From contig NZ_JAQTWM010000005.1 of assembly GCF_028689305.1 (NCBI RefSeq), positions 1-41,592 on the forward strand: DNA of 41,592 nt, written 5' to 3'. Position 1 is the first letter of the stretch. Every line of letters begins with the position of its first letter. The DNA is from Rhodoferax sp. (GTDB taxonomy: Bacteria > Pseudomonadota > Gammaproteobacteria > Burkholderiales > Burkholderiaceae_C). Made by a program: the position numbers and the translations under genes. The notes beneath the pieces were generated by a model. It was given only the letters and a program-made list of their open reading frames with translations. It was not told where the DNA came from and made no database searches. Below are positions 8,057-36,887 of this stretch, one piece after another.

Positions 8057-9421
8057 ATGACTGCGCAGAATCTGATGACCCGGCTGAAGTCGGTTTTCAG
8101 CGCATGGGCTTTTGCGCCGGAAGAGACGGCTACACCGGCCCAGTGGGTTGAAATCGGTCTGATCTCGCTGGGCTCGGTCGCACTGTCCTGGTTGGCCATG
8201 CCCGATGATCCGACGCTGGCACGGGCGCATTTCCCCTGGCAGTGGCTGGCGCCTGTGTTGATTGCCTTGCGTTATGGGGTCATGCCCGGGCTGCTTGGCA
8301 GTGTGGTGCTGATTGCCAATACCTGGGTGGCATTGCAATGGGGGCGGATTCCGGACGAGTTCTCGCCTACGCCGCTGTTCGGCGGTGGTTTGTTGGTGCT
8401 GCTCTGTGGGGAGTTCAGTGATGTCTGGCGCGACAAGAACAAACGGATGGAGGAAACGTACCTTTACGTCACGGAGCGGCTGTCGCGTCTGACAAAAAGG
8501 CATTTGCTGTTGAATTTGTCACATGATCGACTGGAGCAGGAAATGTTGGCGCGGCCCGGTTCCCTGCGTGATGCATTGGCGCGCTTGCGCACGATCAGTA
8601 TGGCGGCGGACCGGCAGACCGAATCTTTGCCGGGTGCCACCGAATTGCTGCAGTTGCTGTCGCAGTATGTCAACATTGAATCAGCCACGCTTTACACGCT
8701 TGAATCCTGGGGCGGGGGGTATAGGCTGGGCCAACTGGCGGCCCAACTGGGTGAGCCAGAGGCGCTGACTCCCGACGACGAGTTGTTGAGGTTGGTGCTG
8801 GAAAAAGGGAGTCTGGCGCATATCGCCAGCCAAGAACTCAGTCTACAGCGACAGACCTCACAGTTGGTGGTGGCGCCGCTGATCGCGGGTGACGATGAAC
8901 TCATTGGGGTGCTGGCGGTTAACCGCATGCCGTTTTTTGCGCTGAATATTGAAAATCTTCAGATGCTGCTGGTGATGTTGGGATATTACGCGGACAACCT
9001 GGGCTCAGCGCGGGAAGTGATTGCGGTCCAGATGCAGTTACCTTCCGTACCAGTTCTTTTTGCGCAGGAGTTGGTGCGCATGATTCGCCTGGGACGCAAG
9101 GTCGGGATTACCAGCCGGGTCGTGGTGATGCGTTTTGAAGGTGATCGTACGCACCAGAAAGAAATCCCTGCTGAGTTCTTGCGCATCAAACGTGGTTTGG
9201 ATTTGTACTGGTTGACCTACGTGCAGGATACGCCCGTGCTGGCCATTCTGATGCCATTTGCCTCGACTTCTGCCAATGAAGGATTTTTGCTGCGCATGGA
9301 TGCCTGGTTGGCCAGCCGATTTCAGGGCAACTTTGAATCCCTGAAGATTGCCGTGCATGAGGTGGAACTGGGGGCGGATGACGCTTTGCCAGCACTGGCT
9401 CAGGCCATGGGGGGTTCATGA
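8057..9421 (+). CDS. pelD: PelD: inner-membrane c-di-GMP receptor of the Pel synthase
   Basis: 454 residues, as expected for PelD. The N-terminus has about four membrane helices (residues 30-125), then a short coiled segment, a GAF domain (about 165-310) and a C-terminal degenerate GGDEF domain. The GGDEF active-site motif is absent. The inhibitory-type c-di-GMP site is present: RGLD gives R379 and D382, and R413 sits 34 residues further on, close to the spacing of the third binding arginine (R367, D370, R402) in P. aeruginosa. It should therefore switch on Pel synthesis by binding c-di-GMP without making it. Its stop overlaps the pelE start (ATGA). Confidence 0.92.
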   Translation: MTAQNLMTRLKSVFSAWAFAPEETATPAQWVEIGLISLGSVALSWLAMPDDPTLARAHFPWQWLAPVLIALRYGVMPGLLGSVVLIANTWVALQWGRIPDEFSPTPLFGGGLLVLLCGEFSDVWRDKNKRMEETYLYVTERLSRLTKRHLLLNLSHDRLEQEMLARPGSLRDALARLRTISMAADRQTESLPGATELLQLLSQYVNIESATLYTLESWGGGYRLGQLAAQLGEPEALTPDDELLRLVLEKGSLAHIASQELSLQRQTSQLVVAPLIAGDDELIGVLAVNRMPFFALNIENLQMLLVMLGYYADNLGSAREVIAVQMQLPSVPVLFAQELVRMIRLGRKVGITSRVVVMRFEGDRTHQKEIPAEFLRIKRGLDLYWLTYVQDTPVLAILMPFASTSANEGFLLRMDAWLASRFQGNFESLKIAVHEVELGADDALPALAQAMGGS

Positions 9422-10458
9422 ATCCGCTGCATTGGGCTTGGGGGGCGGTGCTGGCGGAGGTCAGCCTGTTGCTGAGTCCCTGGATTTTGTCGAGTTCATC
9501 GTGGGTGTTTGGGGGTATCTTGCTAGTCCATGCCGGGATTTGTGCGGTTGCTGCACTGGCGACTTATTGGATGCTGCCCAGGCGTTTTCGTCAGCCAAGG
9601 GGGGCCGTCACGTTGCTGATGTTCTGCTTTGCATTCATGGCACCGGTGGTGGGAGCCATCGGGCTGTTGCTGATCACTCGCCTCAATTTGCGGCAGACGC
9701 TGGAGGGCGCCAGAGTGGCCGTACCCGTGTCATTGCCTCTGCCGGTGTATGACGTCCAATCCAAAGAGCAGACGCGTAGCGGCCAGGGCGCAATTCGCTC
9801 ACGCCTCGGACAGGAAGTGCCCAGCGACCTGCGCATGCAGTCGCTTTTGACGTTACAGGCAGTTCCGAACCAGGTGTCCAACCCGATTCTGGAGGACTTG
9901 CTGGGTGATCGTACCGACGATGTGCGTCTGGTTGCCTTTGGCATGCTGGACGCAGAAGAAAAGAAAATATCCAGTCAGATCCGGCTTGAGTCCGAGCGGT
10001 TGACACGGGATCTGGATAGCGAGCAGCGTTATGACTGTTATCGTCATCTGGCCGAGTTGAACTGGGAACTGGTTTATGCCTGTCTGGCGCAGGGGGAGCT
10101 GCGGCAGCACATTTTGGGGCAGGCACTCAAGTTTGCTGATGCGGCCTTGGCACTGGATGTGCCTCCCGGTGCCGGGCTGGTCTTCCTGCGTGGCCGGATG
10201 TTATTGGAGCGAGGCCAGACAGAGGAGGCCAAAGCAGCGATGGAACAGGCCATGGCGCTGGGGCTGTCGCACACCTCCACACTGCCTTACTTGGCAGAAA
10301 TTGCTTTTCACAAGCGTGATTTTTTACAGGTCAGGCAACTCATGACGCAACTGGCTGCGCTCAATCTGGCTTCACATACACGGGCCATTGAAGATTTTTG
10401 GGTCAGCCGTGATAACGAGATCAACTTCAGTGACCGCAAGTACCTCCCCCACATCTAA
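9418..10458 (+). CDS. pelE: PelE: inner-membrane TPR subunit of the Pel synthase
   Basis: 346 residues (P. aeruginosa PelE about 330). Two hydrophobic segments occur near residues 10-52 and 64-86, followed by a cytoplasmic helical region with TPR-like repeats (AGLVFLRGRMLLERGQTEEA; LPYLAEIAFHKRDFLQVRQL). In the known system PelD, PelE, PelF and PelG form the inner-membrane synthase, PelE being a scaffold. The start ATG overlaps the pelD stop by 4 nt. The 3' end overlaps the pelF start by 29 nt. Confidence 0.86.
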   Translation: MNPLHWAWGAVLAEVSLLLSPWILSSSSWVFGGILLVHAGICAVAALATYWMLPRRFRQPRGAVTLLMFCFAFMAPVVGAIGLLLITRLNLRQTLEGARVAVPVSLPLPVYDVQSKEQTRSGQGAIRSRLGQEVPSDLRMQSLLTLQAVPNQVSNPILEDLLGDRTDDVRLVAFGMLDAEEKKISSQIRLESERLTRDLDSEQRYDCYRHLAELNWELVYACLAQGELRQHILGQALKFADAALALDVPPGAGLVFLRGRMLLERGQTEEAKAAMEQAMALGLSHTSTLPYLAEIAFHKRDFLQVRQLMTQLAALNLASHTRAIEDFWVSRDNEINFSDRKYLPHI

Positions 10459-11980
10459 GGTCAAGTTTCCAGTCGCCGATGAGGTTGACGTGCTGCTGCT
10501 GCTGGAAGGGACCTTTCCCTTCGTTGCAGGAGGGGTGTCCAGCTGGGTCAATCAAATCATCCGCGGCTTTCCAGACATCCGGTTCGGTGCCGTTTTCCTG
10601 GGGAGCCGCCCTGAGGATTACGGCGATCTGCGCTACGCATTGCCCGACAACCTGGTGCATCTTCAGGTGATCTATCTGTTTGAAGACCAGGACAACCCAC
10701 CGCTCAGGCCGGTGGTTGCCAGTGATGCGGCGATGCAGCTGGTGGAACAGGTTCATACCCGGTTTGAAACGAATCTGCGTGCGCCAGACTGCGAAAAACT
10801 GTTTTCCAACCTGATGAATCAGGCCGGACCGGATGGTTTGCTCGGGCATGAGGTTTTCTTGTACAGCGAAGCGGCCTGGGAAATGATCAAGAAAAGTTAC
10901 CGCAGACGCAGTACGGACCCGTCGTTTGTTGACTATTTCTGGACCATTCGCACCATTCATACCCCGTTTTGGCGCTTGCGTGAAGTGGCGGTGGCTTGTC
11001 CCCGCGCCAAAATCTACCACTCGGTGTCGACGGGTTATGCCGGCATTCTGGGGGTATTGCTCAAACACCGCAATCAACGGCCATTCATGCTGAGTGAGCA
11101 TGGCATTTATGTCAAGGAGCGCAAGATCGATTTGTATCAGGCGCAGTGGCTCAAGGACAACCGCAGCGTGTTTGAGCGCGATCCCTCGCGCGTGAGTTAT
11201 TTTCGCCAGCTCTGGATCCGGTTTTTTGAGCACCTGGGTTATGTCACCTACCAGGCGGCCGACGACATCATTGCGCTTTACGAAGCCAACCGGCAACGGC
11301 AACTGCAGGATGGGGCTCCGCCGGAGCGCACTGCCAACATTCCCAATGGCATCGACGTCGCGAGGTTTGCGCCGTTGCGCGCCCAGCGTCCGGTTCAGGT
11401 TCCGCAGGTGCTTTGCCTGATCGGACGTGTGGTACCGATCAAGGACATCAAAACCTTCATCCGTGCCATGCGGATTGTTGCCAATCATCTTCCTGATGCC
11501 CAGGCCTGGATTGCCGGTCCGGAGGATGAGGCGCCCGAGTACGCACGTGAATGCCACGAAATTGCCGAGCAACTGGGCCTGGTCGGCAAGGTGAAGTTTC
11601 TGGGTTTCCAGAAGCTCACCGAATTGCTGCCCAAGGTGGGTCTGGTGGTGTTGAGTTCCATCAGTGAGGCCCTGCCGCTGGTGATTCTGGAGGGTTACGC
11701 AGCCGGGGTGCCGACCTTGTCCACCGATGTGGGTTCATGCCGCCAACTGGTGTTTGGCCTGCCCGGTGAAGATGCAGATATCGGGTCTTCTGGACGGGTG
11801 GTCCGTATTGCCGATCCACAAGCCCTGGCCCTGGCCGCGCTGGAGCTGCTCGGGGATGCGGATGAGTGGCAGCGTGCCAGTAACGCAGCGGTCCGGCGTG
11901 TCGAGACCTATTATTCACAAGACATGATGTTTGCTCGTTATCGGGCGCTGTACCAGAAGAATTTCGCATGGCGGGCATAG
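10430..11980 (+). CDS. pelF: PelF: cytosolic GT4-family glycosyltransferase (Pel polymerase)
   Basis: 516 residues (P. aeruginosa PelF 507). It opens with the family-typical DVLLLLEGTFPFVAGGVSSW and has the GT-B fold signatures CLIGRVVPIKDIKTFIRAM and the EX7E motif (E413 in SEALPLVILE, E421). It polymerises the Pel sugar chain from UDP-activated amino sugars. The frame is open back to TTG 10388, but GTG 10430 (GAGA at 10417-10420) leaves an N-terminus of normal length. It overlaps pelE by 29 nt and pelG by 13 nt, so it probably needs coupled translation. Confidence 0.93.
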   Translation: MTASTSPTSKVKFPVADEVDVLLLLEGTFPFVAGGVSSWVNQIIRGFPDIRFGAVFLGSRPEDYGDLRYALPDNLVHLQVIYLFEDQDNPPLRPVVASDAAMQLVEQVHTRFETNLRAPDCEKLFSNLMNQAGPDGLLGHEVFLYSEAAWEMIKKSYRRRSTDPSFVDYFWTIRTIHTPFWRLREVAVACPRAKIYHSVSTGYAGILGVLLKHRNQRPFMLSEHGIYVKERKIDLYQAQWLKDNRSVFERDPSRVSYFRQLWIRFFEHLGYVTYQAADDIIALYEANRQRQLQDGAPPERTANIPNGIDVARFAPLRAQRPVQVPQVLCLIGRVVPIKDIKTFIRAMRIVANHLPDAQAWIAGPEDEAPEYARECHEIAEQLGLVGKVKFLGFQKLTELLPKVGLVVLSSISEALPLVILEGYAAGVPTLSTDVGSCRQLVFGLPGEDADIGSSGRVVRIADPQALALAALELLGDADEWQRASNAAVRRVETYYSQDMMFARYRALYQKNFAWRA

Positions 11981-13341
11981 GGTTCGAGCTGCGTAAACTG
12001 CTGAAGAAACAGACCTACTCCGGCCTGTTGCAGGCCTATGCGTTTGCCGGCCTGATCAGCTCCGGCCCGTGGGTGCTGTCGATCATCGGCATCATGCTGA
12101 TCGGTCTGTTCAGCCTGGGGAGCATTGCGCCCAAGGAGGCCATATCGCAGTTTCAGGTGACGGTGACCTACCTGTTCCTGATCTCGCTGATTGGCACCGG
12201 TCTGGTGCAGCTGTCGTTTACCCGTTTTGTGGCAGATCGCACGTTTGACAAGAATGAGGCGGCGATCCTGCCGAATTTCAACGGTCTGATTCTGGTCGCG
12301 GTATCGGTCAGCCTGCTGCTTGCCGTACCGTTTGCCGCCTTCTCCTTTACCGGGCAGACGGTACTATTCCGAATGCTGTTTGTCATGGGTTTGGCGGTGA
12401 TGTCATCCATCTGGATTGCCACTGTTTTTCTCACAGGCATGAAACACTACCGGGCGATTGTGTTGATTTTTCTGCTGGGCTATAGCGCCACACTGGGTCT
12501 GGCCTTGTTGTTCAAGCCCTGGTTGGGGATGGATGGGTTGCTGCTGGGTTTTGTGCTGGGCCACTATTTGCTGTTGATGGGCATGATCTGGCTGGTTTAT
12601 CGCAACTATCACTCGGACCTGTTCATCGCCTTTGACATCTGGAAACCCGGTGCCATGTACCTGAGTCTGATGGCCACCGGTTTCTTTTTTAACCTGGGGG
12701 CATGGGTCGACAAATTGATGTTCTGGTATTTCCCGTCGACCGGACAGCCGGTGATCGGGCCGCTGAATGCGTCAGTCATTTACGATTTCCCCATCTTCTT
12801 GTCCTACCTGTCGGTGATTCCGGGGATGGCGGTGTTCCTGGTGCGTATCGAGACCGATTTTGTCGAGTTCTACATCAAGTTCTACGATGCGGTACGCGAG
12901 GGGGCCACGCTGGACTATATCGAACGCATGCGCAACCACATGGTCTACCACGTGCAACGCGGTTTGTTTGACATCGCCAAAATCCAGTCGATTGCCGTGT
13001 TGGTCACTTTTGCATTGGGAGATGTGTTGCTGGGATGGATCGGTATTTCCAGCCTGTATTTGCCGTTGTTGTATGTGGACGTGGTGGGGGCTGCCCTGCA
13101 AGTGGTTCTGCTGGGTATTTTGAATGTCCTGTTTTATCTGGACCAGCGCCGTGCCGTTTTGTTGTTGACCATCATGCTGCCCATGACCAATGTGGTGTTC
13201 ACCGCCCTGTCCCTGAAACTGGGGGCTGCATGGTTTGGCTATGGGTTTGCGTTGGCGATGTTGGTCACGGTGCTGACCGGCGTGTGGATCCTGAACAGGA
13301 AACTCGACAAGCTGGAATACCAGACTTTCATGCTGCAGTAG
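11968..13341 (+). CDS. pelG: PelG: multi-pass membrane protein of the Pel synthase
   Basis: 457 residues (P. aeruginosa PelG 456), starting with the family motif MAGIGFELRKLL. About 12 hydrophobic helices follow, in the manner of the MATE/Wzx (MOP) superfamily, with conserved stretches such as YAFAGLISSGPWVLS and FLSYLSVIPGMAVFLVRIET. It forms the membrane core with PelD and PelE and is thought to pass the polymer across the inner membrane. ATG 11968 lies inside the end of pelF with an AGAAGAA stretch upstream. Last gene of the operon. Confidence 0.94.
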   Translation: MAGIGFELRKLLKKQTYSGLLQAYAFAGLISSGPWVLSIIGIMLIGLFSLGSIAPKEAISQFQVTVTYLFLISLIGTGLVQLSFTRFVADRTFDKNEAAILPNFNGLILVAVSVSLLLAVPFAAFSFTGQTVLFRMLFVMGLAVMSSIWIATVFLTGMKHYRAIVLIFLLGYSATLGLALLFKPWLGMDGLLLGFVLGHYLLLMGMIWLVYRNYHSDLFIAFDIWKPGAMYLSLMATGFFFNLGAWVDKLMFWYFPSTGQPVIGPLNASVIYDFPIFLSYLSVIPGMAVFLVRIETDFVEFYIKFYDAVREGATLDYIERMRNHMVYHVQRGLFDIAKIQSIAVLVTFALGDVLLGWIGISSLYLPLLYVDVVGAALQVVLLGILNVLFYLDQRRAVLLLTIMLPMTNVVFTALSLKLGAAWFGYGFALAMLVTVLTGVWILNRKLDKLEYQTFMLQ

Positions 13342-24547: not shown

Positions 24548-25888
24548 TCAGGCGAAGCTGTCGGCCATCAAGGCGTTGAACCAAGTGTTCATTTCCTTGA
24601 AGTTTTCGGCGCTCCAACCCGTTGACGCACCGGAGCCGGCTGTGGTGGCGGCCATGGCATGGGTACTGGCGTTGTACTGAAACACAGCAGTCAGCCATGA
24701 TGCCTGGGTCATGGTGATGGTCGAGTAGCAGGCTGAATTGGTGACCGGTGCCGGGTCTGGCTGCAAGCCTGCCAGTGAGCGGACGATGGCATCGGCGCAG
24801 ATTTTGGCCTCCTGGTTGGCAATGTGACCCGCCTTGGGTTGGCCAGTGGCACTGGCGTCACCAATGATGTGCACCTTGCCGGCGCCAGACACGGTGCTGG
24901 CATAAGTCAGTTGGTCGACGCCTGCAAAACGGTACGTTGTATCCCCAGGCAGCATGGTGGCGTTGTTGAGGCCGGTGGCCGCCACCAGACCGCCCGCGCG
25001 CTGGCCTGGGATCAAGTTGACGACACCGTTGTTTCTGAAATCGCCTACGCTGGTGAAGACACTCATGGTGGCCGGGTCCACGCTGGTGATGCTGGCATTG
25101 GGCACATAGGTGATGCCGTGCAATGCAAAAGCCTGGGTAAAGTTGTCGGCTTCAGTCAGGATGGCGGGGTTGGCATCCAACACCGTGAGTCTGGACTTGG
25201 GTTTGCGCGTTTTGAGCCAGTCGCCGATCAGGCAGGCACGTTCATAAGGCCCGGGTGGGCAGCGGTAGGGCGCCTTGGGGATGGCCAGCACCACGGGTGC
25301 CCCATCGGTCATGGCGGCCAACTGACTGGCCAGCAAGGTGGTCTGGGTGCCTGCTTTCCAGGCGTGAGGCATGCGGTCCGAGGTTCCCAAACCGGGCACC
25401 GTGTCAAAGTCGACACCGGGCGCCAGCACAATGCGGTCAGCACTCAGGATCGTGCCAGAGCCCAGGCGGACCTTGACGCCCACCGGGTCAATTTCGACCA
25501 CGTCGTCCGTGACCACCTGGACACCGTAGGCGGACAGCAGTTTGCTGTAGTTGTAGGTCAGGCTGGACATGGTCCGTTGGCCGGTGAGCACCATGGAACT
25601 CATGATGTTGGAGATGTAGCTGCTGTTGCGCTCCACCAGCGTGACGGCAATGCCATCACCCCACAAACGCAGGTATTTGGCCACGGTGGCCCCACCCATG
25701 CCACCCCCGATCACGATCACCCGTGATTTGACAGTCCCGCCTGGAGGCGGTTGGGGTGTTGGTTTGGTATCGTCGTGGTGACGGTCTTTTTTCTTTCTGG
25801 ATGTGTTTTCATCATCCGACGCCCAGGCCAGTGGGCTGGCTGCAGCCAACAAAAGGCCGCTTTTTGACAGGAAGTAACGTCTATCCAT
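24548..25888 (-). CDS. FccB/SoxF-like flavoprotein subunit (flavocytochrome c sulfide dehydrogenase family)
   Basis: 446 residues. A twin-arginine-like signal (DRRYFLSKSG) is followed by a charged linker (residues 24-50) and an FAD-binding fold with VIVIGGGMGGATVAKYL and a late HIIGDAS motif. YRCPPGPYERAC (C210, C219) is the family's redox-cysteine region. In FccB/SoxF, as I recall them, a partner cysteine follows IPPQRAG in a GWCPV-like motif. Here the matching place after NLIPGQRAGGLV reads NATMLPGD with no cysteine. Electrons would pass to the small cytochrome encoded just upstream. The substrate may not be sulfide. ATG 25888 has an AGGAG Shine-Dalgarno. Confidence 0.85.
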   Translation of the reverse strand: MDRRYFLSKSGLLLAAASPLAWASDDENTSRKKKDRHHDDTKPTPQPPPGGTVKSRVIVIGGGMGGATVAKYLRLWGDGIAVTLVERNSSYISNIMSSMVLTGQRTMSSLTYNYSKLLSAYGVQVVTDDVVEIDPVGVKVRLGSGTILSADRIVLAPGVDFDTVPGLGTSDRMPHAWKAGTQTTLLASQLAAMTDGAPVVLAIPKAPYRCPPGPYERACLIGDWLKTRKPKSRLTVLDANPAILTEADNFTQAFALHGITYVPNASITSVDPATMSVFTSVGDFRNNGVVNLIPGQRAGGLVAATGLNNATMLPGDTTYRFAGVDQLTYASTVSGAGKVHIIGDASATGQPKAGHIANQEAKICADAIVRSLAGLQPDPAPVTNSACYSTITMTQASWLTAVFQYNASTHAMAATTAGSGASTGWSAENFKEMNTWFNALMADSFA

Positions 25889-25913
25889 GGTGGTGCTCCT
25901 GATGGTGAAGGGG

Positions 25914-26222
25914 TTAGCGCTGGGTCGAGAGCCAGCTGGAGAGCGAAAGCAGCTGGGCGTCGGTGTAGCCCATGGCGTGGCGCGCCATGATGCCGTTGCC
26001 TTCCTTGCCCGACTGGAACTCCTTCAGGTCTTTGTAGATTTCAGACGCAGATTTACCGGCCAGCTGGTCGAATCCGGGCCCTTTGCCATTGGTGCCATGG
26101 CACTGAAAACAGTTGGAAGCCAGCAGGCGCCCGGCGGGTGGAGCGGTCTGGGCTTGTACACCCAGGCTCAAGCCCAAGGTACAGGCAACAATGCCGGTTG
26201 TGTAGCGAAGATGAGGAAGCAT
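25914..26222 (-). CDS. Small monoheme c-type cytochrome, partner of the flavoprotein
   Basis: 102 residues with a Sec signal peptide (cleavage near VQAQ), one heme site CFQCH, and a C-terminal MARHAMGYTDAQLLSL that contains the probable Met ligand. It resembles the cytochrome subunit (FccA/SoxE type) of flavocytochrome c. It is transcribed first and the flavoprotein follows after 25 bp, as expected for an electron-transfer pair. ATG 26222 has AAAGG six bases upstream. Confidence 0.85.
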   Translation of the reverse strand: MLPHLRYTTGIVACTLGLSLGVQAQTAPPAGRLLASNCFQCHGTNGKGPGFDQLAGKSASEIYKDLKEFQSGKEGNGIMARHAMGYTDAQLLSLSSWLSTQR

Positions 26223-26263
26223 GGTGAACCTTTCGTGTAGACAGCAAACGAACGAAGACACGA

Positions 26264-26283
26264 ACATCAGTCTGTGCTGATGT
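26264..26283. promoter_or_regulatory. Inverted repeat upstream of the cytochrome/flavoprotein pair
   Basis: ACATCAG (26264-26270) and CTGATGT (26277-26283) form a 7-bp inverted repeat with a 6-bp centre, about 42 bp upstream of the cytochrome start. It could be a regulator operator; no run of T follows, so a terminator is less likely. Confidence 0.3.
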
Positions 26284-26363: not shown

Positions 26364-27755
26364 TCAAGTCGAGCCGCAAGCCGGCCAGCGCACGACCACG
26401 CACAGACCACCGAGCGGTTCTGATCGGCGGACATGGATTTGCGCCTGGTATACCGCCGCAATACGCCGCACAATCGACCAGCCCAGCCCACTGCCGGTTT
26501 GCTCGGTCCCCAGCACGCGGAAGAAGCGTTCGCCAAGGTGGGCGATTTCGGTATCCGTCAAGCCCGGCCCACTGTCGTCCACCTGGAGTACAACCTGTGT
26601 GTCTGTGCAGGTGACAGACAGACTTACCCTGGCTCCCTTGGGGCTGTAACGCATGGCGTTGTCTAGCAGGTTGCGAATCAACACACCGGTCAGCGTGTCA
26701 TCCGCAGTAATCCAGCAGGGGGCGGGCGCTTCCAGTGTCAACTCCTGCCCGCGGCCCAATGCCGCCAGCGCCAGATCAGCCGCCACGCGCTGCGCCACTG
26801 CACTCACATCCACTTGTCCGGTGGGGGCGTCGGCGCTGGATGATTCCAGCCGCGACAGGGTCAACAATTGCGCTACCAGATGGGTGGCCCGATCACATCC
26901 GGCAAGGGTGTACTGCAGGGCATGTTCCCGTGCCTCGATGTCGGTGCCGGCGGCCAGTGCCACTTGCGCCTGGGTGCGAATGGCCGCGATCGGCGTGCGT
27001 AGCTCATGCGCAGCATCGGCCGTGAAGCGCCGCTCGGAGGCCATCATGGTCTGGATACGTTCAAAGAGCGCATTGAGTGAGTGGACGACTGGCTCAATCT
27101 CGGACGGCACATCAGTCAGCACCACCGGTTCCAGCGCCTGTGGCTGGCGCTGTGACAGTGCCCGGCTGAGCAGTCGCAGCGGAGCCAGGCCTTGACGAAC
27201 GGCTAACCAGCCCACCACGGCCAGCAGTGGCAGGGCATACATCAGCGGCAGCAGCACCCCTTTGAGCACCGCCCACAGGATGGAGTCGCGTGAATCGACT
27301 TGCTCGCCGACAAAGACTTGCACATCCCCTTCGTTGCCTTGCGTCGCAAAAACCCGCCATTGCTTGCGATTGGGCAGTGTGATGGTGGAAAAGCCTCGAT
27401 CCTGGGTGGCCATGGGGGTGTCGCCAGCGTTGGCTGAACGCATGGTCAGCTTGCCTTCATGAAACACCTGGAAGGCCACACGTGGCGCATATTTGTGCAA
27501 TGAAGGGGCATCTTCCACCTTGTCCTCATGGTGGTTTTGATCTTGGCCGGCCGTGTTTTCGGTGCCATGGCCGGTCTGCTGCACGATCAACAACGCGGCA
27601 GACTGCGCCAGGTGCCCGTCCAGCAATTCATCCAGTTCATGGCTGGCCTCCACCCAGGTCAGCGCAGCGGCGCCGCCCCAGATCAGTGTCACCAGCAGCA
27701 ACAGCAGCGCCAGCAGGCGTGCCTGCAAGGATTTGAGTGAAGGGCGTAGGTGCAT
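26364..27755 (-). CDS. QseC/PmrB-like sensor histidine kinase
   Basis: 463 residues. A membrane helix (about 13-34), a periplasmic domain (35-160), a second helix (about 164-188), a HAMP-like linker, a phospho-accepting H250 in AAHELRTP, then N (NLLDNAMRYSPKG) and G (DDSGPG, GSGLGWSIV) boxes. The periplasmic domain holds a His/Asp/Glu-rich insert (TGHGTENTAGQDQNHHED, residues 61-78), which could bind a metal. It lies 5 bp downstream of the response-regulator gene. Confidence 0.9.
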   Translation of the reverse strand: MHLRPSLKSLQARLLALLLLLVTLIWGGAAALTWVEASHELDELLDGHLAQSAALLIVQQTGHGTENTAGQDQNHHEDKVEDAPSLHKYAPRVAFQVFHEGKLTMRSANAGDTPMATQDRGFSTITLPNRKQWRVFATQGNEGDVQVFVGEQVDSRDSILWAVLKGVLLPLMYALPLLAVVGWLAVRQGLAPLRLLSRALSQRQPQALEPVVLTDVPSEIEPVVHSLNALFERIQTMMASERRFTADAAHELRTPIAAIRTQAQVALAAGTDIEAREHALQYTLAGCDRATHLVAQLLTLSRLESSSADAPTGQVDVSAVAQRVAADLALAALGRGQELTLEAPAPCWITADDTLTGVLIRNLLDNAMRYSPKGARVSLSVTCTDTQVVLQVDDSGPGLTDTEIAHLGERFFRVLGTEQTGSGLGWSIVRRIAAVYQAQIHVRRSEPLGGLCVVVRWPACGST

Positions 27756-27760
27756 GGTGA

Positions 27761-28426
27761 TCAGGCATCAGGCCGCAGCATGGTGTAGCCAATGCCGCGC
27801 ACGGTCTGGATGAGGTCGGCGCGTAGTTTCTTGCGCAAATGATGAATGTGGACTTCGACCGCGTTGCTTTCGACCTCATGCCCCCAGCTGTACAACTGTT
27901 GCTCCAGTTGCTCGCGCGACAATACCCTCCCCACGTTCAGCAGCAGGGCGTGGAGCAGGTCAAATTCACGGGTCGACAGGAGCACGGGCTGCCCATCCAG
28001 GGTCACTTGCCGGGCGGCAGGGTTCATCTGTACGGCGCCGCATGTCAGGACGTCCTGTGTTTGGCCGTGTGAGCGGCGAACCAGCGAGCGCAAACGGGCA
28101 CCCAATTCGTACAGGTCAACGGGTTTGAGCACGTAATCGTCAGCGCCCAGATCCAGCCCCTTGATGCGATCCGGTATGGCATCACGTGCCGTTAGTACCA
28201 ACACGGGGGTGTTCACTTTGCGGCTGCGCAGTGCTTGCAGCACATCCATACCGTCTTTGTGGGGTAGCCCTAGATCCAGTACGGCGGCCTGATAGTCGCC
28301 ACTGGTAATCTCACGCTCTGCAGCCATGCCGTCGCGCACCCAATCGACCTGAAAGCCCTGCTGGCGCAACCCGGCGCGCAAACCATCACCCAGCATGGGA
28401 TCGTCTTCAGCCAACAAAATTCGCAT
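27761..28426 (-). CDS. QseB/PmrA-like OmpR-family response regulator
   Basis: 221 residues: a receiver domain with the acidic pocket EDD (7-9), phospho-acceptor D51 (VLDLGLPHKDG) and the K in VLKPVD, then a winged-helix OmpR/PhoB DNA-binding domain (STREFDLLHALL; SNAVEVHIHHLRKKL). It is first in a two-gene operon with the kinase. Regulators of this subgroup bind direct repeats of the CTTAAK-N5-CTTAAK type. Two such pairs lie at 29811-29827 and 29872-29888, upstream of the diheme cytochrome. Confidence 0.92.
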   Translation of the reverse strand: MRILLAEDDPMLGDGLRAGLRQQGFQVDWVRDGMAAEREITSGDYQAAVLDLGLPHKDGMDVLQALRSRKVNTPVLVLTARDAIPDRIKGLDLGADDYVLKPVDLYELGARLRSLVRRSHGQTQDVLTCGAVQMNPAARQVTLDGQPVLLSTREFDLLHALLLNVGRVLSREQLEQQLYSWGHEVESNAVEVHIHHLRKKLRADLIQTVRGIGYTMLRPDA

Positions 28427-28458
28427 GATTTGTCCCTTTGTGGTTCGTGGCAGTGATG

Positions 28459-29193
28459 TTAATCGCCGTCATCATGCCCGTTGTACCCGCTGTGTTTGGA
28501 TAATTTGCCGTGGCGTTCGTGTTCACCATGGTGACGCTGGCTTTTGCCATCCTGTCTGGTTGGCGCTGCGCTCGGCGGACTTTGCCATTGCAGCCACCAA
28601 AATCCCAGCACTGACCCTAGCACCAATGCGGCGATGGGCCACCAGGTCCAGCGAATCGCTGCGGTAGGTGAACCCGTTTTGTAGCCATGAATCATGGAGG
28701 CGATCAAGTTTTCACCCTGTACCACACAGGCTAGCAGCACGCCGGCTACATGGACGCTGATGATGGCCAACATGAGACCGGCGGCGCTCTCATGCACTTC
28801 CTTGATGATGTGCGAACCTCCATGGAAGTACACCCAGCCCGTGTACACGATGATAGGGCTTGACAACAACATCAGCGTGATCGAAATGGCCCCTAGTGGG
28901 TTGTGACCCACGGGGTGTTCAGACTTACCGGACCATAGGGCGTTGACGTAATGCGCGATGGTCTCTGGCCCCCGAAGAAAACTGGTAAAACGTGCATAGC
29001 GGGGGCCAATCAATCCCCATATCAACCGAAACATCACCAGGCCCGCCATGGTGTAGCCCAGCGTGGTGTGTACACCGATCAGCCGTTCACTTTCTGATGT
29101 GGCATAGGCGCCGGCGAAGCAAAGCGCGAACATCCAGTGGAATACCCGCGTGGGCGTATCCCAAACCAGAATCCGTGTCTTGGTTTCAGTCAT
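28459..29193 (-). CDS. Di-heme cytochrome b (Ni/Fe-hydrogenase/cytochrome b561 type)
   Basis: 244 residues with four membrane helices and the PF01292 pattern VWDTPTRVFHWMFALCF, followed by membrane histidines for b-heme (HTTLGYTMAG; KEVHESAAGLMLAIISVHV). Such subunits move electrons between the quinone pool and periplasmic cytochromes. The C-terminal tail is highly charged and His-rich (RHHGEHERHGKLSKHSG). It starts 3 bp after the diheme cytochrome stop, so the two are one operon. Confidence 0.88.
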   Translation of the reverse strand: MTETKTRILVWDTPTRVFHWMFALCFAGAYATSESERLIGVHTTLGYTMAGLVMFRLIWGLIGPRYARFTSFLRGPETIAHYVNALWSGKSEHPVGHNPLGAISITLMLLSSPIIVYTGWVYFHGGSHIIKEVHESAAGLMLAIISVHVAGVLLACVVQGENLIASMIHGYKTGSPTAAIRWTWWPIAALVLGSVLGFWWLQWQSPPSAAPTRQDGKSQRHHGEHERHGKLSKHSGYNGHDDGD

Positions 29194-29196
29194 CTT

Positions 29197-29763
29197 CTAG
29201 CGGGGAATGCGAACGTCATGTTCGTCAAATACACCTTGCGGGGCGTTTTGATGACAAGCTTCACATTTGGAGGGGCTGCCAATGGATGGGCGACTCCAGG
29301 TGCCTGCCGGGACATGTTTTTCACCATGCTTGCGTTGAAACCAATAAGTGCTGGTAATGCGGTCATCGACCGGCATCTCGCTGACCCGCTTGTAGGTGCC
29401 GGACTGGCTGGTCAGGTAGGCGGTGATTTCACGGAGTGATACGTCATCCAGAGAGGCGTCTGTGCCGTAATGTTTGTTCAAATGACTCATCATGCGTTGC
29501 CATGAACCAGCTGGCAAAAAGCCCGCCGGATAGGCGACATGGCACGCAGCACATTCTTCCCGGTATTTGGGCGGCGTCGAGGCCATACCGGCGCGGCTGT
29601 CGCCGTTGCGATCACTGTGGCCTGAGGCCTTGTATTCGCTGTGACTTTTTTTGCCCCAGCTCCACCAGGAATCGCCATGGTCATCTGCCTGAGCGCTGTG
29701 GACCATACTCGCTGCCATCAGCAAAGCCAACAAGGTCTTGAGCGTGAGGGAAAAATGCGTCAT
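29197..29763 (-). CDS. Periplasmic diheme cytochrome c (DHC family)
   Basis: 188 residues with a Sec signal (cleavage near AQA). Two heme sites, CAACH and CEACH, are separated by a LNKHYGTDASLDDVSLREI region typical of the DHC family (PF09626). In Rhodobacter and Shewanella DHC exchanges electrons with SHP and a membrane cytochrome b. Here cytochrome b follows immediately, but no SHP gene is in the window. The two-component system is encoded next on the same strand. Confidence 0.87.
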   Translation of the reverse strand: MTHFSLTLKTLLALLMAASMVHSAQADDHGDSWWSWGKKSHSEYKASGHSDRNGDSRAGMASTPPKYREECAACHVAYPAGFLPAGSWQRMMSHLNKHYGTDASLDDVSLREITAYLTSQSGTYKRVSEMPVDDRITSTYWFQRKHGEKHVPAGTWSRPSIGSPSKCEACHQNAPQGVFDEHDVRIPR

Positions 29764-29988: not shown

Positions 29989-30615
29989 ATGACCACCATT
30001 TCCATTCCAGGCAAGCGAGTCCCACGGTTGATGGGGGTCGTATTGCTGGGATACCTGAGTTTGGGTAGCCAGGCACAAACCACCTGGTCGTCCGTCCCAC
30101 GTGCGGATGACAGTTTGGAAGCGGCCAGGGCACGTTTTGAGGCTGACAAAAAACTTTGTGCTGATGAGTCCTCGGCCGAGGCCCGACTGCAATGTCGTCG
30201 TGATGCACAGTCCGTTTATGACAAGGCGCTGGCGACAAACGCCGCCAGAGGGAGTTACAGCACGCGGCCAACACAGGTGGCCTGTATCGACTGTGGTCGT
30301 GTGACCGCTGTGACAGTTGCGGAAAAGGCGGGTGACAGCAATGCTGTTGGCATGATCGCCGGGGGTGTGGCTGGCGCGGTATTGGGGCATCAGGTGGGCG
30401 GTGGTTTCGGCAAAGATCTGGCGACTGTTGCCGGTGCAGTTGGTGGCGCCTATGCCGGGAAAAAAATCCAGGAAAACATGAATGCCCGCAAGGTCTGGAC
30501 GGTCACAGTGACTTATACCGATGGCCAGATAGCCAGCTTCGAATTTGCCAATGACCCTGGGCTGTCTGTGGGAGACACTGTCAGGAATTCAGGCACCACG
30601 GTGATCCGTTATTGA
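29989..30615 (+). CDS. Glycine-zipper 2TM-domain outer-membrane protein
   Basis: 208 residues. A signal peptide ends near LGSQAQ. A soluble region has two cysteines (ACIDCGRV), then a glycine-zipper segment (AVGMIAGGVAGAVLGHQVGG and TVAGAVGGAYAGKK) of the Rick_17kDa_Anti/PF05433 type, and a C-terminal YTDGQIASFEF domain. Relatives are SlyB-like envelope proteins of unclear function. ATG 29989 has GGAG six bases upstream; the longer frame to 29860 is spurious. Its end overlaps the convergent radA by 7 bp. Confidence 0.82.
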   Translation: MTTISIPGKRVPRLMGVVLLGYLSLGSQAQTTWSSVPRADDSLEAARARFEADKKLCADESSAEARLQCRRDAQSVYDKALATNAARGSYSTRPTQVACIDCGRVTAVTVAEKAGDSNAVGMIAGGVAGAVLGHQVGGGFGKDLATVAGAVGGAYAGKKIQENMNARKVWTVTVTYTDGQIASFEFANDPGLSVGDTVRNSGTTVIRY

Positions 30616-31991
30616 CCTAGTCCACGGACCACTTCCATGGCCTGCTCAACCCGTTCCACTGCGTGGATCGTGAGGCCGTCAAAATCTTTGGTCTTCGGGT
30701 TTTTCGGCACATTTGCCTTGGGCACCACGGCCACGCTGAAACCCAGTTTGGCCGCTTCTTTCAGGCGTTCCTGACCGCGTGGAGCTGGCCGTACCTCGCC
30801 GGCGAGTCCCACTTCACCAAAGGCAAAAAAACCTTTGGGCAGGGGTTTGCCACGTAAGCTGGAGGTGATAGCCAGCATGACTGCCAAATCGGCTGCCGGC
30901 TCGGAAATACGCACGCCACCCACCGCGTTCACAAACACGTCCTGATCCATACACGCCACGCCGGCATGGCGGTGCAACACGGCCAGCAGCATGGCCAGCC
31001 GATCTTTGTCCAGGCCCACACTCAGACGCCGGGGTGACGGACCACCGCTGTCCACCAGTGCCTGAATTTCCACCAGCATGGGGCGCGTGCCTTCCAGCGT
31101 GACCATCACACAGCTACCCGGCACCGGCTCGGTATGCTGGCTTAAAAATATCGCACTCGGGTTGCTCACTCCTTTGAGACCTTTTTCGGTCATGGCAAAC
31201 ACGCCGATTTCATTGACTGCACCAAAGCGGTTCTTGATGGCGCGCACCAGCCGAAAACTCGAATGTGTGTCGCCCTCAAAGTACAGCACGGTGTCCACCA
31301 TGTGCTCCAGCACGCGCGGGCCCGCCAGCGCGCCTTCTTTGGTCACGTGGCCTACCAGCACCACGCAAACACCACTGGCCTTGGCGGCCCGCGTCAGATG
31401 GGCGGCGCATTCACGCACCTGCGCCACCGAGCCCGGGGCAGATGTCAGCTGCTCGGAATAGACAGTCTGGATTGAGTCAATCACCGCGATGTGGGGGCGC
31501 TGGTTCTCCAGTGTGGCCAGGATTCTTTCCAACCCGATCTCGGCCAACACCTTCACCTGTGAGCCTTCCAACCCCAGCCGGCGCGCCCGCAACGCCACTT
31601 GTGCGCCACTTTCTTCACCGGTGACATACAAAGTGCTTTGGCCACTGCGTTGCAGCGAGTCCAGTGCCTGCAGTAGCAGAGTGGATTTACCAATGCCCGG
31701 GTCACCGCCGATCAGCACAACGCCACCTTCGACCATGCCGCCGCCGAGGACTCGATCCAGTTCTTCGTGCCCGGTGGGGGTTCGTGCCATGTCTACGGCT
31801 TCAATGTCTCCCAGTACGGTGAGTTCGGCCGTTTTGGCCAGGGAGGTGAAGCGGTTTTTGGTGGGGCCGACGTTTTCCGGCACCGCTTCAACCAGTGTGT
31901 TCCAAGCGTTGCAATGCGGACATTTGCCCTGCCATTTGGGGCTGATGCCGCCACAATCAGAGCAGACGTAGTGGGTTTTTTCTTTGGCCAT
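30609..31991 (-). CDS. radA: RadA (Sms) DNA repair/recombination protein
   Basis: 460 residues, the standard length. An N-terminal four-cysteine zinc finger (CSDCG and CPHC), a Walker A GGDPGIGKST, the RadA-specific KNRFG motif and a C-terminal Lon-like domain are all present. RadA is a RecA-type helicase that extends D-loops in recombination. ATG 31991. A CTGT-N8-ACAG LexA-like box lies 14-29 bp upstream and overlaps the likely -10 region, suggesting SOS control. Confidence 0.95.
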   Translation of the reverse strand: MAKEKTHYVCSDCGGISPKWQGKCPHCNAWNTLVEAVPENVGPTKNRFTSLAKTAELTVLGDIEAVDMARTPTGHEELDRVLGGGMVEGGVVLIGGDPGIGKSTLLLQALDSLQRSGQSTLYVTGEESGAQVALRARRLGLEGSQVKVLAEIGLERILATLENQRPHIAVIDSIQTVYSEQLTSAPGSVAQVRECAAHLTRAAKASGVCVVLVGHVTKEGALAGPRVLEHMVDTVLYFEGDTHSSFRLVRAIKNRFGAVNEIGVFAMTEKGLKGVSNPSAIFLSQHTEPVPGSCVMVTLEGTRPMLVEIQALVDSGGPSPRRLSVGLDKDRLAMLLAVLHRHAGVACMDQDVFVNAVGGVRISEPAADLAVMLAITSSLRGKPLPKGFFAFGEVGLAGEVRPAPRGQERLKEAAKLGFSVAVVPKANVPKNPKTKDFDGLTIHAVERVEQAMEVVRGLGQ

Positions 31992-32004
31992 GACCGGGAT
32001 GTTA

Positions 32005-32020
32005 CTGTATAAAATTACAG
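32005..32020 (-). promoter_or_regulatory. LexA-like SOS box upstream of radA
   Basis: CTGTATAAAATTACAG fits CTGT-N8-ACAG, and the flanks extend the match to 14 of 20 positions of the E. coli LexA consensus. It starts 14 bp upstream of the radA ATG and overlaps TATACA, a candidate -10 for radA. This is a single site seen by eye. Confidence 0.6.
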
Positions 32021-32059
32021 ATCAACGTCCCGCCATGCCAATGCACCTTGAGTTGGTGT

Positions 32060-33151
32060 CTACCAACGTACCAATTGAATCTCGCCCGATTCGGTGGCCA
32101 TGACGGCGCGGGAATCCTTGAGGGGGCTTACCGTTGGGCGCAGGTCGTGTTCAAAAGGAATGCGCAGCAGCTCTCGACCACTGTCGGCGTCAAGCACATG
32201 CAGCATCTGGTTCATGTCCAGGCAGTACACCTTATTCTCAGACGTGACGATCTCAGCCATCATTGGGCCCCAGTTGGCGGTGCTGTTGCCGTAGCGGGTG
32301 GTCTGATGGCGCCAGCGTACGGCACCGGTGTCCACGTCAATGGCATAGATCCAGCCGGTGGGGGACCACAGGTAAGCGGTGTCGCCTGCCACGTGATGTG
32401 AATTGATGAAGTTGCCGGCCTTGAAGGTCCACTTGATTTTGCCGGTGTCAACGTGAATACCATACAGCAGCTCAGTGTAGGTGCCCGCCACCAACACGTT
32501 TCCCGTGACATACATCTGACGGATGTATTGCCAGTTTTTGCTTTCATCAAGCTTCCATTTGAGCTTGCCATCGGCAACGTTTACCGCGTACAACTTGCCA
32601 TCGCCGGGTCCAAAGAACACTGTCTCGCCAGCCACGGTGGGTGCGTAGGAGGCCGTGCAATCGTCCGTGTCCGGGGTAAAGCGCCAGTCGATGGCGCCGG
32701 ACTGGTTGCTCAGTGCCAACAACCAGTGGCCATCACCTACGTAGGTCCGGTCAGCGTCCACAAAAGGTGTGCCGACCTGCAAAATGGCTTTGTGTACCCA
32801 ACGTGGTTGGCCGTCAGCCATCTGCCAGGCGCCCAGTTCACGTTGACCTCCACTGATCACCGACTGCCCGGCTGCGCGTGGTCGGTACACCGCGTTGCTG
32901 CTCAGATGGTGGGGCACATTCCACACTGGGGCGGCACTGTCCGGTGCAATGCGGCCCAGGGTTTTGTCGCCGTTGAAGAAAATCTGCTCATTCAGCAGGG
33001 CCAACGGTGCCAGCGTGCTGTTGCCGCTGGCCCAGCGTCGCAATACGCTGGGCGTCCGAGTGGCCGCAGAAACAGAAAAGGTGGGCAAGAGCCCACCTGC
33101 GGAGAATGCCACCAACAGGTGGCGCCGAGACAAACGGATGTCGGTTGCCAT
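32060..33151 (-). CDS. Tat-exported PQQ-like beta-propeller protein (FoxY-like candidate)
   Basis: 363 residues. A twin-arginine signal (SRRHLLVAFSAGG) is followed by repeated blades of the form Y-A-(V/I)-D-V-(A/D)-T/D-G-x-x-x-W (LYAVNVADGKLKWKL; LYGIHVDTGKIKWTF; IYAIDVDTGAVRWRH), the PQQ-enzyme/beta-propeller pattern. No quinoprotein dehydrogenase active site is recognised, so it may be a non-catalytic or electron-transfer propeller. ATG 33151 shares its A with the stop of the upstream cytochrome gene (TGATG), so translation is coupled. By content and order the pair resembles foxE-foxY. No foxZ gene follows; radA lies upstream of nothing in common. Confidence 0.78.
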   Translation of the reverse strand: MATDIRLSRRHLLVAFSAGGLLPTFSVSAATRTPSVLRRWASGNSTLAPLALLNEQIFFNGDKTLGRIAPDSAAPVWNVPHHLSSNAVYRPRAAGQSVISGGQRELGAWQMADGQPRWVHKAILQVGTPFVDADRTYVGDGHWLLALSNQSGAIDWRFTPDTDDCTASYAPTVAGETVFFGPGDGKLYAVNVADGKLKWKLDESKNWQYIRQMYVTGNVLVAGTYTELLYGIHVDTGKIKWTFKAGNFINSHHVAGDTAYLWSPTGWIYAIDVDTGAVRWRHQTTRYGNSTANWGPMMAEIVTSENKVYCLDMNQMLHVLDADSGRELLRIPFEHDLRPTVSPLKDSRAVMATESGEIQLVRW

Positions 33152-34044
33152 CAATCGCACTTGGCTCCTTGCTTGATCCACGCACTCAGGATGGTGGTGT
33201 TTGGATGGTCACGTGGCTCGGATGGACTGATGCCGGGGGGCATACGGTCTTCTGACAAATGCTGCCAGACAAAGCTCTTTTCCGGATCGCCGGGCACAAT
33301 CACCTTGGTGGCTTTGTCCACACCCTTGGCCACCGAATCTGCACCAAGCAGAATGCCCGCATGGGTACTCAGGTTCAGTTCGTGGAAGCTTGGAGGTTCC
33401 TGGTTGGACATGTGGCAGGCCGTGCAGGCCGGTGTATCAGGACCGAAGGCATTGGGTGTCTTGAACAAAGGCAAGACATTCTTGTTGAAATGGTCGTCGT
33501 TCTTCGCACCGTCGGCAATCCAGTTTTTCACCAGCATGTGGTTGGGGGTGAAGGTGGAGTGTTCAAATCCCTGGCCCAGAGGCATGCGGTTGTTGCGCAG
33601 TCGGCGGACCAGAACGTCGCGCTTGGGGTCGGTTCCTGGCGTGAAGAGTTTGCGTTTGGGTTTTTCTGTGGAGCCTTCAATCATGCCCTTGCAGGTCGAC
33701 AGATCCAGGCCGCGGTAACTCTTGCTGGGGTCAGTGGAGTTGTGGCAGGTGGTACACGCCACACCCGGGCCAAAGGCATTGGGTGTGTTCATCAGGGTAT
33801 TGATGTATTTGTAGGTGATGGGGATGCTGCGTTTGATAATCAGCTCCTGAACAACGTGATCGTCAGCGCCGGCCGGGCCGACCTTGCCGTCCTTCATGTC
33901 CTGGATCATTTGTTCAGCCAGGGTCATGCGGTGTTTTTCTTGAGCCAATGCCGTGTTGGCGAAGCCAGCGGCCAAGGCTGCAACGACACAGCTTGCTTTG
34001 GCCATTTGCGTAAGCCGGAGTTTGGTGAAGGATGAAAGTGGCAT
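33151..34044 (-). CDS. Two-module diheme c-type cytochrome (FoxE-like candidate)
   Basis: 297 residues. Signal peptide to about residue 35. Two similar halves follow: each begins with (N/K)TPNAFGP, then a heme site (CTTCH, C97-H101; CTACH, C207-H211), then (Y/H)-x-LNLSTxxG-like text (RGLDLST; HELNLST) and finally an RMPxG motif (M154; M268) likely to supply the Met ligand. This points to an internal duplication. ATG 34044 has a strong AAGGAG Shine-Dalgarno. It is first in the pair with the beta-propeller gene. FoxE of phototrophic Fe(II)-oxidisers is also a diheme cytochrome beside a propeller gene; identity with it is not established here. Confidence 0.8.
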
Positions 34045-34217
34045 CAAAGTCTCCTTGTTGGTTGAATGCTGATAAATATTAAATGTCTTAAGGCTGATTG
34101 AAAGTAGGGGTTTGCCATAACAAAAGTTACCAATAGTCACAAATTTCGCAACAACTGACTCAATGCTTACGGCTGTGCAGATTGGCACACCGGTCCTATT
34201 TGTTACAGGCAGCACAT

Positions 34218-36887
34218 ATGACCTCTCCAACAACTGTGATTCCGGCATCTTCTGATGTGGCCCCCACGGACCCAGCGGGGCTGAGTACGGCCCAGGTGGC
34301 TCAGCGCCTGCAGCAAGATGGCCCCAACGTGTTGCCCTCCGATCGGCAGCGGGGCTGGCGGGCCATTACGAGGGAGACCCTGTCAGACCCCATGTTTGCC
34401 CTGTTGTTGGGGGCCGGTGTGTTGTACTTTCTGCTGGGTGATCTGCAGGAAGGCTTGATCCTGATGGGCTTGGTGCTGGTGGTGCTGGCGCTCACTTTGT
34501 ACCAGGAAGGCAAGACGGAGCATGCGCTGGCATCCCTGCGTGATCTGACCAGTCCACGCGCGCTGGTGGTGCGTGACGGCAAGCCGGTGCGTATTGCCGG
34601 CCGTGACGTGGTGCGGGGTGACATCTTGCTGCTTGCCGAAGGGGACCGGGTGGCCGCTGATGCACTATTGATCCGTGGTACGGACGTTCAGCTGGATGAA
34701 TCTTTGCTGACGGGTGAACCGCATCCGGTGGACAAGGTGGTCATGTCAATGGCGGCCAGCTCAGATGACCACCCGTCGCAGTCAGTGAAGTCCACACTGT
34801 TTTCCGGCACGCTGCTGGTACGTGGCCAGGCCATGGCACGTGTGTTGGCAACCGGAGTTCATAGCGAAATTGGCCGTATCGGGGCTGCGCTGGATAGTTT
34901 GACAGCTGAACCTTCGCCGTTGCGTCGGCAGACCGCACAACTGGTACAGGTGCTGGCGGTGGTGGCGGTGGTGGCCAGCGTGATGCTGGTGGTGGCTTTT
35001 GGTTTGCAGCGTGGTGATTGGCTAGGGGCTTTGCTGGCGGGCATTGCGCTGGCGATGGCCTTGCTGCCGCAGGAATTCAGTGTGGTTCTGACCGTGATTC
35101 CTGCCCTTGGCGCCTGGCGGTTGTCAAAACACCAAGTGTTGACGCGCCGTATTGCCGCCATTGAGACGCTCGGGGCGACCAGCGTGTTGTGTGTGGACAA
35201 GACCGGCACGCTGACAGAAAACCGCATGACGGTGGTGCGACTGTATGCCGAAGCTCCCGCTTCGTCAGTGGCTGCTCAGCCAGATGGCCAAGTGCAGGGC
35301 TGCAGCATGGCTGTTGACTACGCCACCACCACTGAACTTCCCGAGACCTTTCATACCTTGGTGGAGTTTTCGATCCTGGCCAGTGTGAGTACCCCGTTTG
35401 ACCCGATGGAAAAGGCGTTTCATCGTCTGGGTCAGCATTTTTTGCGAGACACCGAGCACCTGCATCGTGACTGGACCTTGCTGCAGCAATATGGACTGAC
35501 CCAGGAACTCCGGGCGATGTCACATGTCTGGAAGGCGGTGGACGGGTCGGCGCATGTGGTGGCGGCCAAGGGGGCGCCTGAGGCTATTGTGGATTTGTGT
35601 CACATGGATGCTGCCGCTCAGGCGCGTGTGGCGGCTGCAGTGGATGACATGGCGGCGCAGGGTCTGCGTGTGCTTGGGGTGGCACAGGCGCGGTTTGAGG
35701 GGGTGGATTGGCCGGCCATTGAGCATGATTTCGAGTTCGACTTTGTCGGCCTGCTGGGGCTGGCCGACCCGCTGCGCCCTGAGATTCCCGATGCAGTGGC
35801 GCAGGCGCATGCGGCCGGTATCCGGGTGGTGATGATCACCGGGGACTACCCCGCGACGGCCACTGCCATTGCGCGCCAGGCCAGGCTGCACCGGGACTCC
35901 GAGCCTTTCCGGAAACCCGACGAGGCCGGGGCATGGCTGTTGACGGGGGAGGCCATGTCGCAACTGGGCGATGTGCAACTGCAGCAGCGCATGACCACTG
36001 TGAGCGTGTGTGCACGTATCGCGCCAACGCAGAAATTGCGCATCGTGCAGGCACTCAAGGCCAATGGTGAAGTGGTGGCCATGACCGGCGACGGTGTCAA
36101 CGATGCCCCGGCACTGAAGGCCGCGCATGTTGGCGTCGCCATGGGCGAACGTGGGACCGATGTGGCGCGTGAAGCCGCCTCGGTGGTGCTGCTCAATGAC
36201 AACTTTGCCGCACTGGTACATGCCGTGCGACTGGGACGGCGCATTTTTGACAACTTGCGCAAATCCATGTCCTACATTCTGGCGGTGCATGTCCCGATTG
36301 CCGGTATGGCTTTGCTGCCGGTTCTGCTGGGCTGGCCGACCATGCTGTTTCCACTGCACATTGCTTTCCTGGAGTTGGTGATTGACCCGGCCTGTTCGAT
36401 GGTTTTTGAGAACGAGCCGGACGAACCCGGTCTGATGCAGCGCCAGCCGCGCAACGTGAACACGCCGCTATTGGGTGGCGAGACCCTGGCGTGGGCGCTG
36501 GCGCAGGGTCTGGGATCGCTGGCGCTGGTGCTGCTGGCGACCTGGTGGTGCTTGGGCCACTTGAGTGAAGGCGCCGCCCGGGCGTTTGCCTTTGCCATGC
36601 TGGTGGCCGGCAATCTGGCGCTCATTCTGGCCAATCGTGCGTGCAGGGGCTCGTTGCTGCAAAGTCTGCGGGTGCCCAATCACACGTTGTGGCTCGTGTG
36701 CGCTGCAGCTTTGTTGTTGTTGGGGTTCTCTTTGTATGTGCCGTGGTTGGCCGGTTTGTTCAAGTTCGCCTACTTGCCCTGGCCCTGGCTTGGGGTGGCA
36801 CTGGCACTGGGCGTGTTGCTGATGCTGGTGCTGGAATGGTTCAAACCCCGTGCTGCTGACGCAGGTGGCGTATCTTGTCCAGGTTGA
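34218..36887 (+). CDS. P-type cation-transporting ATPase (substrate uncertain)
   Basis: 889 residues with a cation-ATPase N-terminal domain, actuator motif [11 protein letters not shown] (normally TGES), phosphorylated D327 ([11 protein letters not shown]), the hinge [17 protein letters not shown] and about ten membrane helices. The membrane-4 ion-binding motif reads LPQEFSVVL. Close relatives, as I recall them, have LPEEFPVVL, so an acidic residue and a proline are replaced. This leaves the ion open (Ca2+, Mn2+ or another). ATG 34218. It diverges from the cytochrome gene across 173 bp and overlaps the next convergent gene by 47 bp. Confidence 0.85.

Follow-up and report, generated by a model that had tools for sequence, protein, structure and literature searches.

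Can a Rhodoferax species use genes of the fox type for the oxidation of Fe(II), and what would the two products of such a gene pair do? The question is raised by a 41,592-nucleotide stretch of Rhodoferax sp. DNA (contig NZ_JAQTWM010000005.1), which in its whole length is called the window here. A first-pass annotation, made from the letters alone, singled out a diheme cytochrome gene and a propeller gene of this stretch as a FoxE/FoxY-like pair and as a possible module for the oxidation of Fe(II) or another metal. The pair was correctly placed at positions 32060-34044, and its features and flanking genes are listed in Table 1.

Table 1. The foxEY genes of the window, their upstream element and the genes on either side
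Feature	Positions	Strand	Description
radA (named from Pfam domains)	30609..31991	(-)	68 bp downstream of foxY; chromosomal anchor, outside the module
foxY	32060..33151	(-)	Tat-type exported β-propeller, 363 aa from the ATG overlapping the foxE stop; PF13360, E 1.8e-26
foxE	33151..34044	(-)	diheme c-type cytochrome, 297 aa; FoxE structural match, invariant heme-ligand positions
foxE-upstream element TGTAACNNNTGTNANNGNAAACCCCT (1 mismatch here), 26 bp	34106..34131	(-)	61 bp before the foxE ATG
P-type cation ATPase	34182..36887	(+)	divergent; the other anchor of the foxEY site; named from Pfam

Identity of the cytochrome and its propeller partner

The best match of the cytochrome among solved structures is FoxE itself (5mab/5mvo; E 5e-112, 377 bits, residues 14-297), with the runner-up chain reaching only 15.9 bits. 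The FoxE-like character proposed for it was thus confirmed, and a best match to a cytochrome of another pathway, the outcome named beforehand as speaking against it, did not occur. Homology to FoxE of Rhodobacter ferrooxidans SW2 covers the whole mature protein, and the CxxCH, axial Met and disulfide positions are the same; the signal peptide is Sec-like as judged by eye. The CxxCH motifs at residues 97 (CTTCH) and 207 (CTACH) correspond to heme I (C97/C100/H101) and heme II (C207/C210/H211), M154 and M268 are the axial Met candidates, and C118 and C296 are the disulfide candidates. All these residues are invariant in an alignment of 28 sequences including that of the window. Their roles as ligands and disulfide are taken from the accessible part of PMC10654088, which gives Cys37-Cys40-His41-Met208 and Met94-Cys147-Cys150-His151 as the ligands and Cys58-Cys236 as the disulfide of Rhodoferax ferrireducens FoxE; an offset of 60 turns these numbers into C97, C100, H101, M268, M154, C207, C210, H211, C118 and C296 of the window protein. 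The two alike halves remarked on in the first-pass annotation are the product of a real duplication, since their alignment scores 159, far above the shuffles (mean 26.6, maximum 50, 0 of 2000 as high), and the RMPLG of one half aligns with the RMPPG of the other. Judged by its sequence, the cytochrome gene is foxE.

The propeller gene directly downstream encodes PQQ repeats, and the A at window position 33151 is common to the foxE stop TGA and its ATG, as had been observed from the letters; the same one-base overlap is present in 19 of the 27 loci listed, the window included. Its Tat export was also proposed from the start, and the twin-arginine signal SRRHLL is indeed present at the N-terminus, with R9 and R10 nearly invariant among 27 aligned sequences. 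Export by this route would fit a protein that is folded before export. Taken alone, the protein matches only general PQQ/BamB-type propellers, and it is named FoxY because it is paired with foxE and because of the published description of foxEY (PMC10654088, seen in part). Of 89 genomes of the window's genus, 21 have foxE, and the same 21 have foxY (in G448 on two contigs). A FoxY match accompanies FoxE in all 45 FoxE loci compared, in which many genomes are counted twice, also where the other neighbours differ, as in metagenome-assembled genomes (MAGs) titled Hydrogenophaga and Propionivibrio. As a separate observation, one locus (L016:8001-9931) encodes a FoxE 79% identical to that of the window and a FoxY only 53% identical, unlike other loci with a similar FoxE, and may be a mosaic.

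FoxY has been described in the literature as a PQQ-containing protein (including the accessible part of PMC10654088), and its PQQ_2 (PF13360) and PQQ repeat domains would agree with an enzyme that takes part in electron transfer using imported PQQ. We regard this role as improbable, since neither PqqC nor PqqE above the cut-off was found in any of the 21 FoxE-positive genomes, 14 of which are at least 90% complete. The same searches detected both proteins in G408, G415 and G434, the only ones of the 89 genomes with PqqE above the cut-off and exactly those with PqqC. There is also no conserved cysteine pair in FoxY, and in the comparison with solved chains, where designed propellers rank at the top, its best natural matches are 3hxj (titled pyrrolo-quinoline quinone) and BamB, with methanol dehydrogenase far weaker. 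Below the cut-off, the PqqE model also gave matches in 75 more genomes of the genus and in 14 of 14 control genomes; such matches occur in 20 of the 21 FoxE-positive genomes, the best of them, in G447, scoring 91 bits where the cut-off is 381, and presumably represent other radical-SAM proteins. PQQ synthesis appears to be absent from all 21 FoxE-positive genomes, and because no PqqC or above-cut-off PqqE accompanies FoxE, FoxY probably does not use home-made PQQ, with which uptake from outside would be compatible. FoxY, exported by the Tat system and translated together with FoxE, would most likely not be a PQQ dehydrogenase but a BamB-like propeller without PQQ, with a role in assisting or docking FoxE.

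Genomic site and inheritance of foxEY

No foxZ lies directly downstream of foxY, where the next gene on the same strand is radA, in agreement with the first-pass annotation. The foxEY pair directly precedes radA in 17 of the 21 FoxE-positive genomes; it was not found there in G406, G411, G437 and G479, where the region covered was 1.4 to 7.7 kb upstream of radA or 2.3 kb downstream of foxY. The surroundings of radA were examined in 54 FoxE-negative genomes. In G399, G438 and G443 the same ATPase directly adjoins radA with about 170-270 bp between the matches, which represents an empty site. In G409, G440 and G442 the two are separated by a second ATPase of about 29% identity, a gene from beyond the ATPase adjoins radA in G432, and a response regulator/kinase pair separates ATPase and radA in G400, G424, G433 and G457. 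The remaining FoxE-negative stretches lack such an ATPase-radA arrangement, several of them owing to near contig ends. Loci L057, L064, L074 and L107 carry a response regulator/histidine kinase pair between ATPase and radA, the place of foxEY in other species.

The radA search gave no match at the threshold in 14 of the 89 genomes, and 74 of the 75 sequences entered the radA tree (G469, with 573 bases, was left out), for which the bootstrap had not settled; L100 (G466) was left out. Over these 74 genomes the presence of FoxE changes only 5 times, compared with a mean of 18.4 after shuffling, so FoxE has mainly been inherited, with a few losses or transfers. foxEY is an accessory pair usually located at one ATPase-radA site. 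No FoxE match was found among the plasmids of PLSDB at E 1e-10. Among 399 sampled genomes of the order, FoxE was detected at E 1e-20 in the window's own genome only. Among 23 close-FoxE loci in named genomes, 11 are titled Rhodoferax and the rest belong to Comamonadaceae, Hydrogenophaga and other Beta- and Gammaproteobacteria; this list holds the relatives of one query, and records of the window's own genome may be missing from it.

Several other gene groups of the window were noted. On the minus strand, positions 26364-29763 encode a DHC diheme cytochrome, a cytochrome b561, a response regulator and a sensor kinase, a group that often adjoins radA in this genus, whether foxEY is present or not. 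The DHC protein and cytochrome b561 (28459-29763) might form one electron path with FoxE, given their position near foxEY in the window, in several further Rhodoferax loci and, differently arranged, in L019, L020 and L022. We consider such a path very improbable: DHC was not found beside radA in the FoxE-positive loci L010, L011 and L023, and it also stands downstream of radA in 18 of the 54 FoxE-negative stretches, which rules it out, together with cytochrome b561, as a dedicated partner of FoxE. The response regulator and sensor kinase (26364-28426) were rejected as specific regulators of foxE, being located beside radA in FoxE-negative genomes too and not found there in the FoxE-positive loci L011, L014 and L023. 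At 24548-26267 on the minus strand, the gene for a flavoprotein of the flavocytochrome c sulfide dehydrogenase type (FCSD domains) is preceded by one for a small cytochrome c, and the two may serve in sulfide oxidation. A pel-type exopolysaccharide cluster (962-13341, plus strand) comprises genes with PelB, PelD and PelG domains together with those for a GH114 protein and a glycosyltransferase.

A conserved element upstream of foxE

Comparison of the region upstream of foxE in segments of 26 bases revealed a pairwise identity of 0.86 over the element stretch from -87 to -62 (19 loci), compared with 0.32-0.51 farther upstream than -93 and 0.59-0.66 from -66 to the ATG. With at most 2 mismatches, the pattern TGTAACNNNTGTNANNGNAAACCCCT occurs once per genome in 20 of the 21 FoxE-positive genomes and in none of the 68 FoxE-negative genomes; the backward control pattern matches in 3 of the 89 genomes. 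The match is located just upstream of foxE in 19 of the 20 genomes that have one. In G407 it lies on a contig other than that of foxE, 101 bases short of the end of the sequence examined, which is consistent with a contig break at foxE and would place it before this gene, and in G437 the element matches only if the spacer is one base longer. The pattern was derived post hoc, from an alignment that contained 19 of the 21 FoxE-positive genomes, so its presence in those 19 and, in part, the high identity follow by construction. The design of the pattern does not account for its occurring only once per genome, for its absence in the 68 FoxE-negative genomes or for the matches in the unaligned G407 and G448.

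Seven loci outside the core set were compared as well. Two of them, L016 and L018, fit the pattern with 2 mismatches, a result reached by 0 of 500 shuffles, and L017, L019, L020, L022 and L024 show 6-7 mismatches (22-134 of 500 shuffles as good) and are not convincing. The element is kept in loci where the ATPase is not a neighbour (L003, L005, L015, L016 and L018) and hence belongs to foxE. It contains the tandem half-sites TGTAAC and TGTNA, 9-10 bp apart or about one helical turn. A sigma-70 scan of positions 31900-34300 found no promoter, with 1.1 expected from shuffles. The element probably serves as the site of an activator or as an operator, and foxEY would be transcribed from this conserved promoter element of its own. 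A literature search for foxE promoters did not bring up any account of an element of this kind in the accessible parts of the sources (the title of PMC6831781 concerns PioAB), and the main text of PMC10654088 contains none of the words promoter, pqq and radA. It is conceivable, though we put this forward tentatively, that foxEY forms a self-contained, PQQ-free iron-oxidation cassette, in which the element would be the target of a dedicated iron- or redox-sensing activator for foxEY alone and FoxY, instead of being a quinoprotein, would assist FoxE as a Tat-folded partner in assembly or docking.

Electron donor, metabolic company and relation to known fox systems

The assembly that includes the window comprises 187 contigs with 3.83 Mb in total and is 86.5% complete. 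At this completeness no PufLM (PF00124) match and hence no photosynthetic reaction centre was detected, which agrees with the earlier description of the host as non-phototrophic. The genome has one RuBisCO match, of form II (5c2c, E 9.8e-196), and one cluster with an MtrB/PioB porin and an adjoining multiheme cytochrome. The best solved match of the latter is 6r2q_A, which we take to be the Mtr complex; the table labels the chain otherwise.

For the genus, presence and absence sets were compiled by hand (matches at E 0.001; for PQQ, above the cut-off) and compared by Fisher tests. RuBisCO is present in 20 of 21 FoxE-positive and 36 of 68 FoxE-negative genomes (p 2.5e-4), and at a completeness of at least 90 in 13 of 14 and 22 of 40, respectively (p 0.011); FoxE-positive G448, listed as 100% complete, has no RuBisCO match. 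As FoxE changes only 5 times on the radA tree, with 3 supported independent pairs, this association may reflect shared descent, and despite its significance it was given up as independent evidence for lithoautotrophy. PufLM showed no significant difference (1 of 21 versus 13 of 68, p 0.17), the only FoxE-positive genome with PF00124 being G402. This Rhodoferax MAG (MTEI01000008.1, R. ferrireducens isolate A7; L011/L041, G402:C8:84879-85757), which encodes both FoxEY and PufLM, is a candidate betaproteobacterial photoferrotroph.

We infer by analogy that Fe(II) is the electron donor of FoxE. The match to 5mab, the foxE-foxY pairing and the form II RuBisCO of the same genome support this reading, as does Rhodoferax lithotrophicus MIZ03, which, according to the available part of PMC8552755, grows on Fe(II) at 1% O2 and carries foxEY, mtrABC and CbbM but no photosynthesis genes. 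Its mtrABC genes count against the reading, and the MIZ03 authors state there that it is unclear which homologue, if any, oxidises iron. The direction of electron flow is not fixed by sequence, because an SW2 FoxE fraction had weak Fe(III)-reducing activity (PMC11570789, in the part available). This activity would also suit a role of FoxEY in protecting the periplasm from Fe(II), in redox balance or in Fe(III) reduction, with growth on Fe(II), if any, proceeding through a porin-cytochrome conduit of the MtrAB/MtoAB type. The MtrB/PioB cluster of the window's genome points the same way, and an oxidase acting in the periplasm would produce Fe(III) within the cell. Such a role is nevertheless unlikely, as MtrB/PioB is not associated with FoxE (11 of 21 versus 40 of 68, p 0.62; G404, among the 68, lies below the family cut-off) and 10 of the 21 FoxE-positive genomes have no MtrB/PioB match, so that FoxEY often occurs without this porin.

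It is the oxidation of Fe(II) that we favour, and we consider it likely that foxEY is an operon through which FoxE passes electrons from Fe(II) to the respiratory chain for lithotrophic growth, with FoxY as a PQQ-free, BamB-like helper and transcription from its own promoter element. By analogy with the SW2 protein, FoxE would act as a periplasmic diheme cytochrome taking electrons from Fe(II), and these would reach the respiratory chain through carriers and thereby support lithotrophic growth.

The locus shares with foxEYZ of SW2 the order foxE then foxY and the homology over residues 14-297, but it differs in the absence of foxZ directly downstream, in having no detected reaction centre and in its site beside radA. 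According to the available text of PMC10654088, operons resembling foxEY exist in Rhodocyclales, Burkholderiales and Rhodospirillaceae and as a rule lack foxZ, which is also missing directly after foxY in the window. MIZ03 is of the same genus and likewise combines foxEY and form II RuBisCO with a lack of photosynthesis genes (PMC8552755, in part). In G403 (L035), which its sequence places in a species other than that of the window, FoxE is 80% and FoxY 79% identical to the window proteins and the neighbours of foxEY are the same. The first-pass annotation had rated the pair the strongest candidate for an unusual system in the window. This rating did not hold, because foxEY has already been published for the same genus (PMC8552755 and PMC10654088, in their accessible parts), and the pair is a further copy of the known foxEY system in a new species. 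Beyond the published record, the analysis adds the absence of PqqC and of above-cut-off PqqE from the FoxE-positive genomes and the element private to foxE.

FoxEY is listed among the known iron oxidases in the available portion of PMC13386937. FoxE is one of few named Fe(II) oxidases, and with the window the small group of FoxE carriers in which no reaction centre has been detected gains a member. The lack of PQQ synthesis genes calls into question the current description of FoxY as a PQQ protein, and the foxE-private element offers a handle to ask whether foxEY responds to Fe(II), the question left open by the MIZ03 authors.
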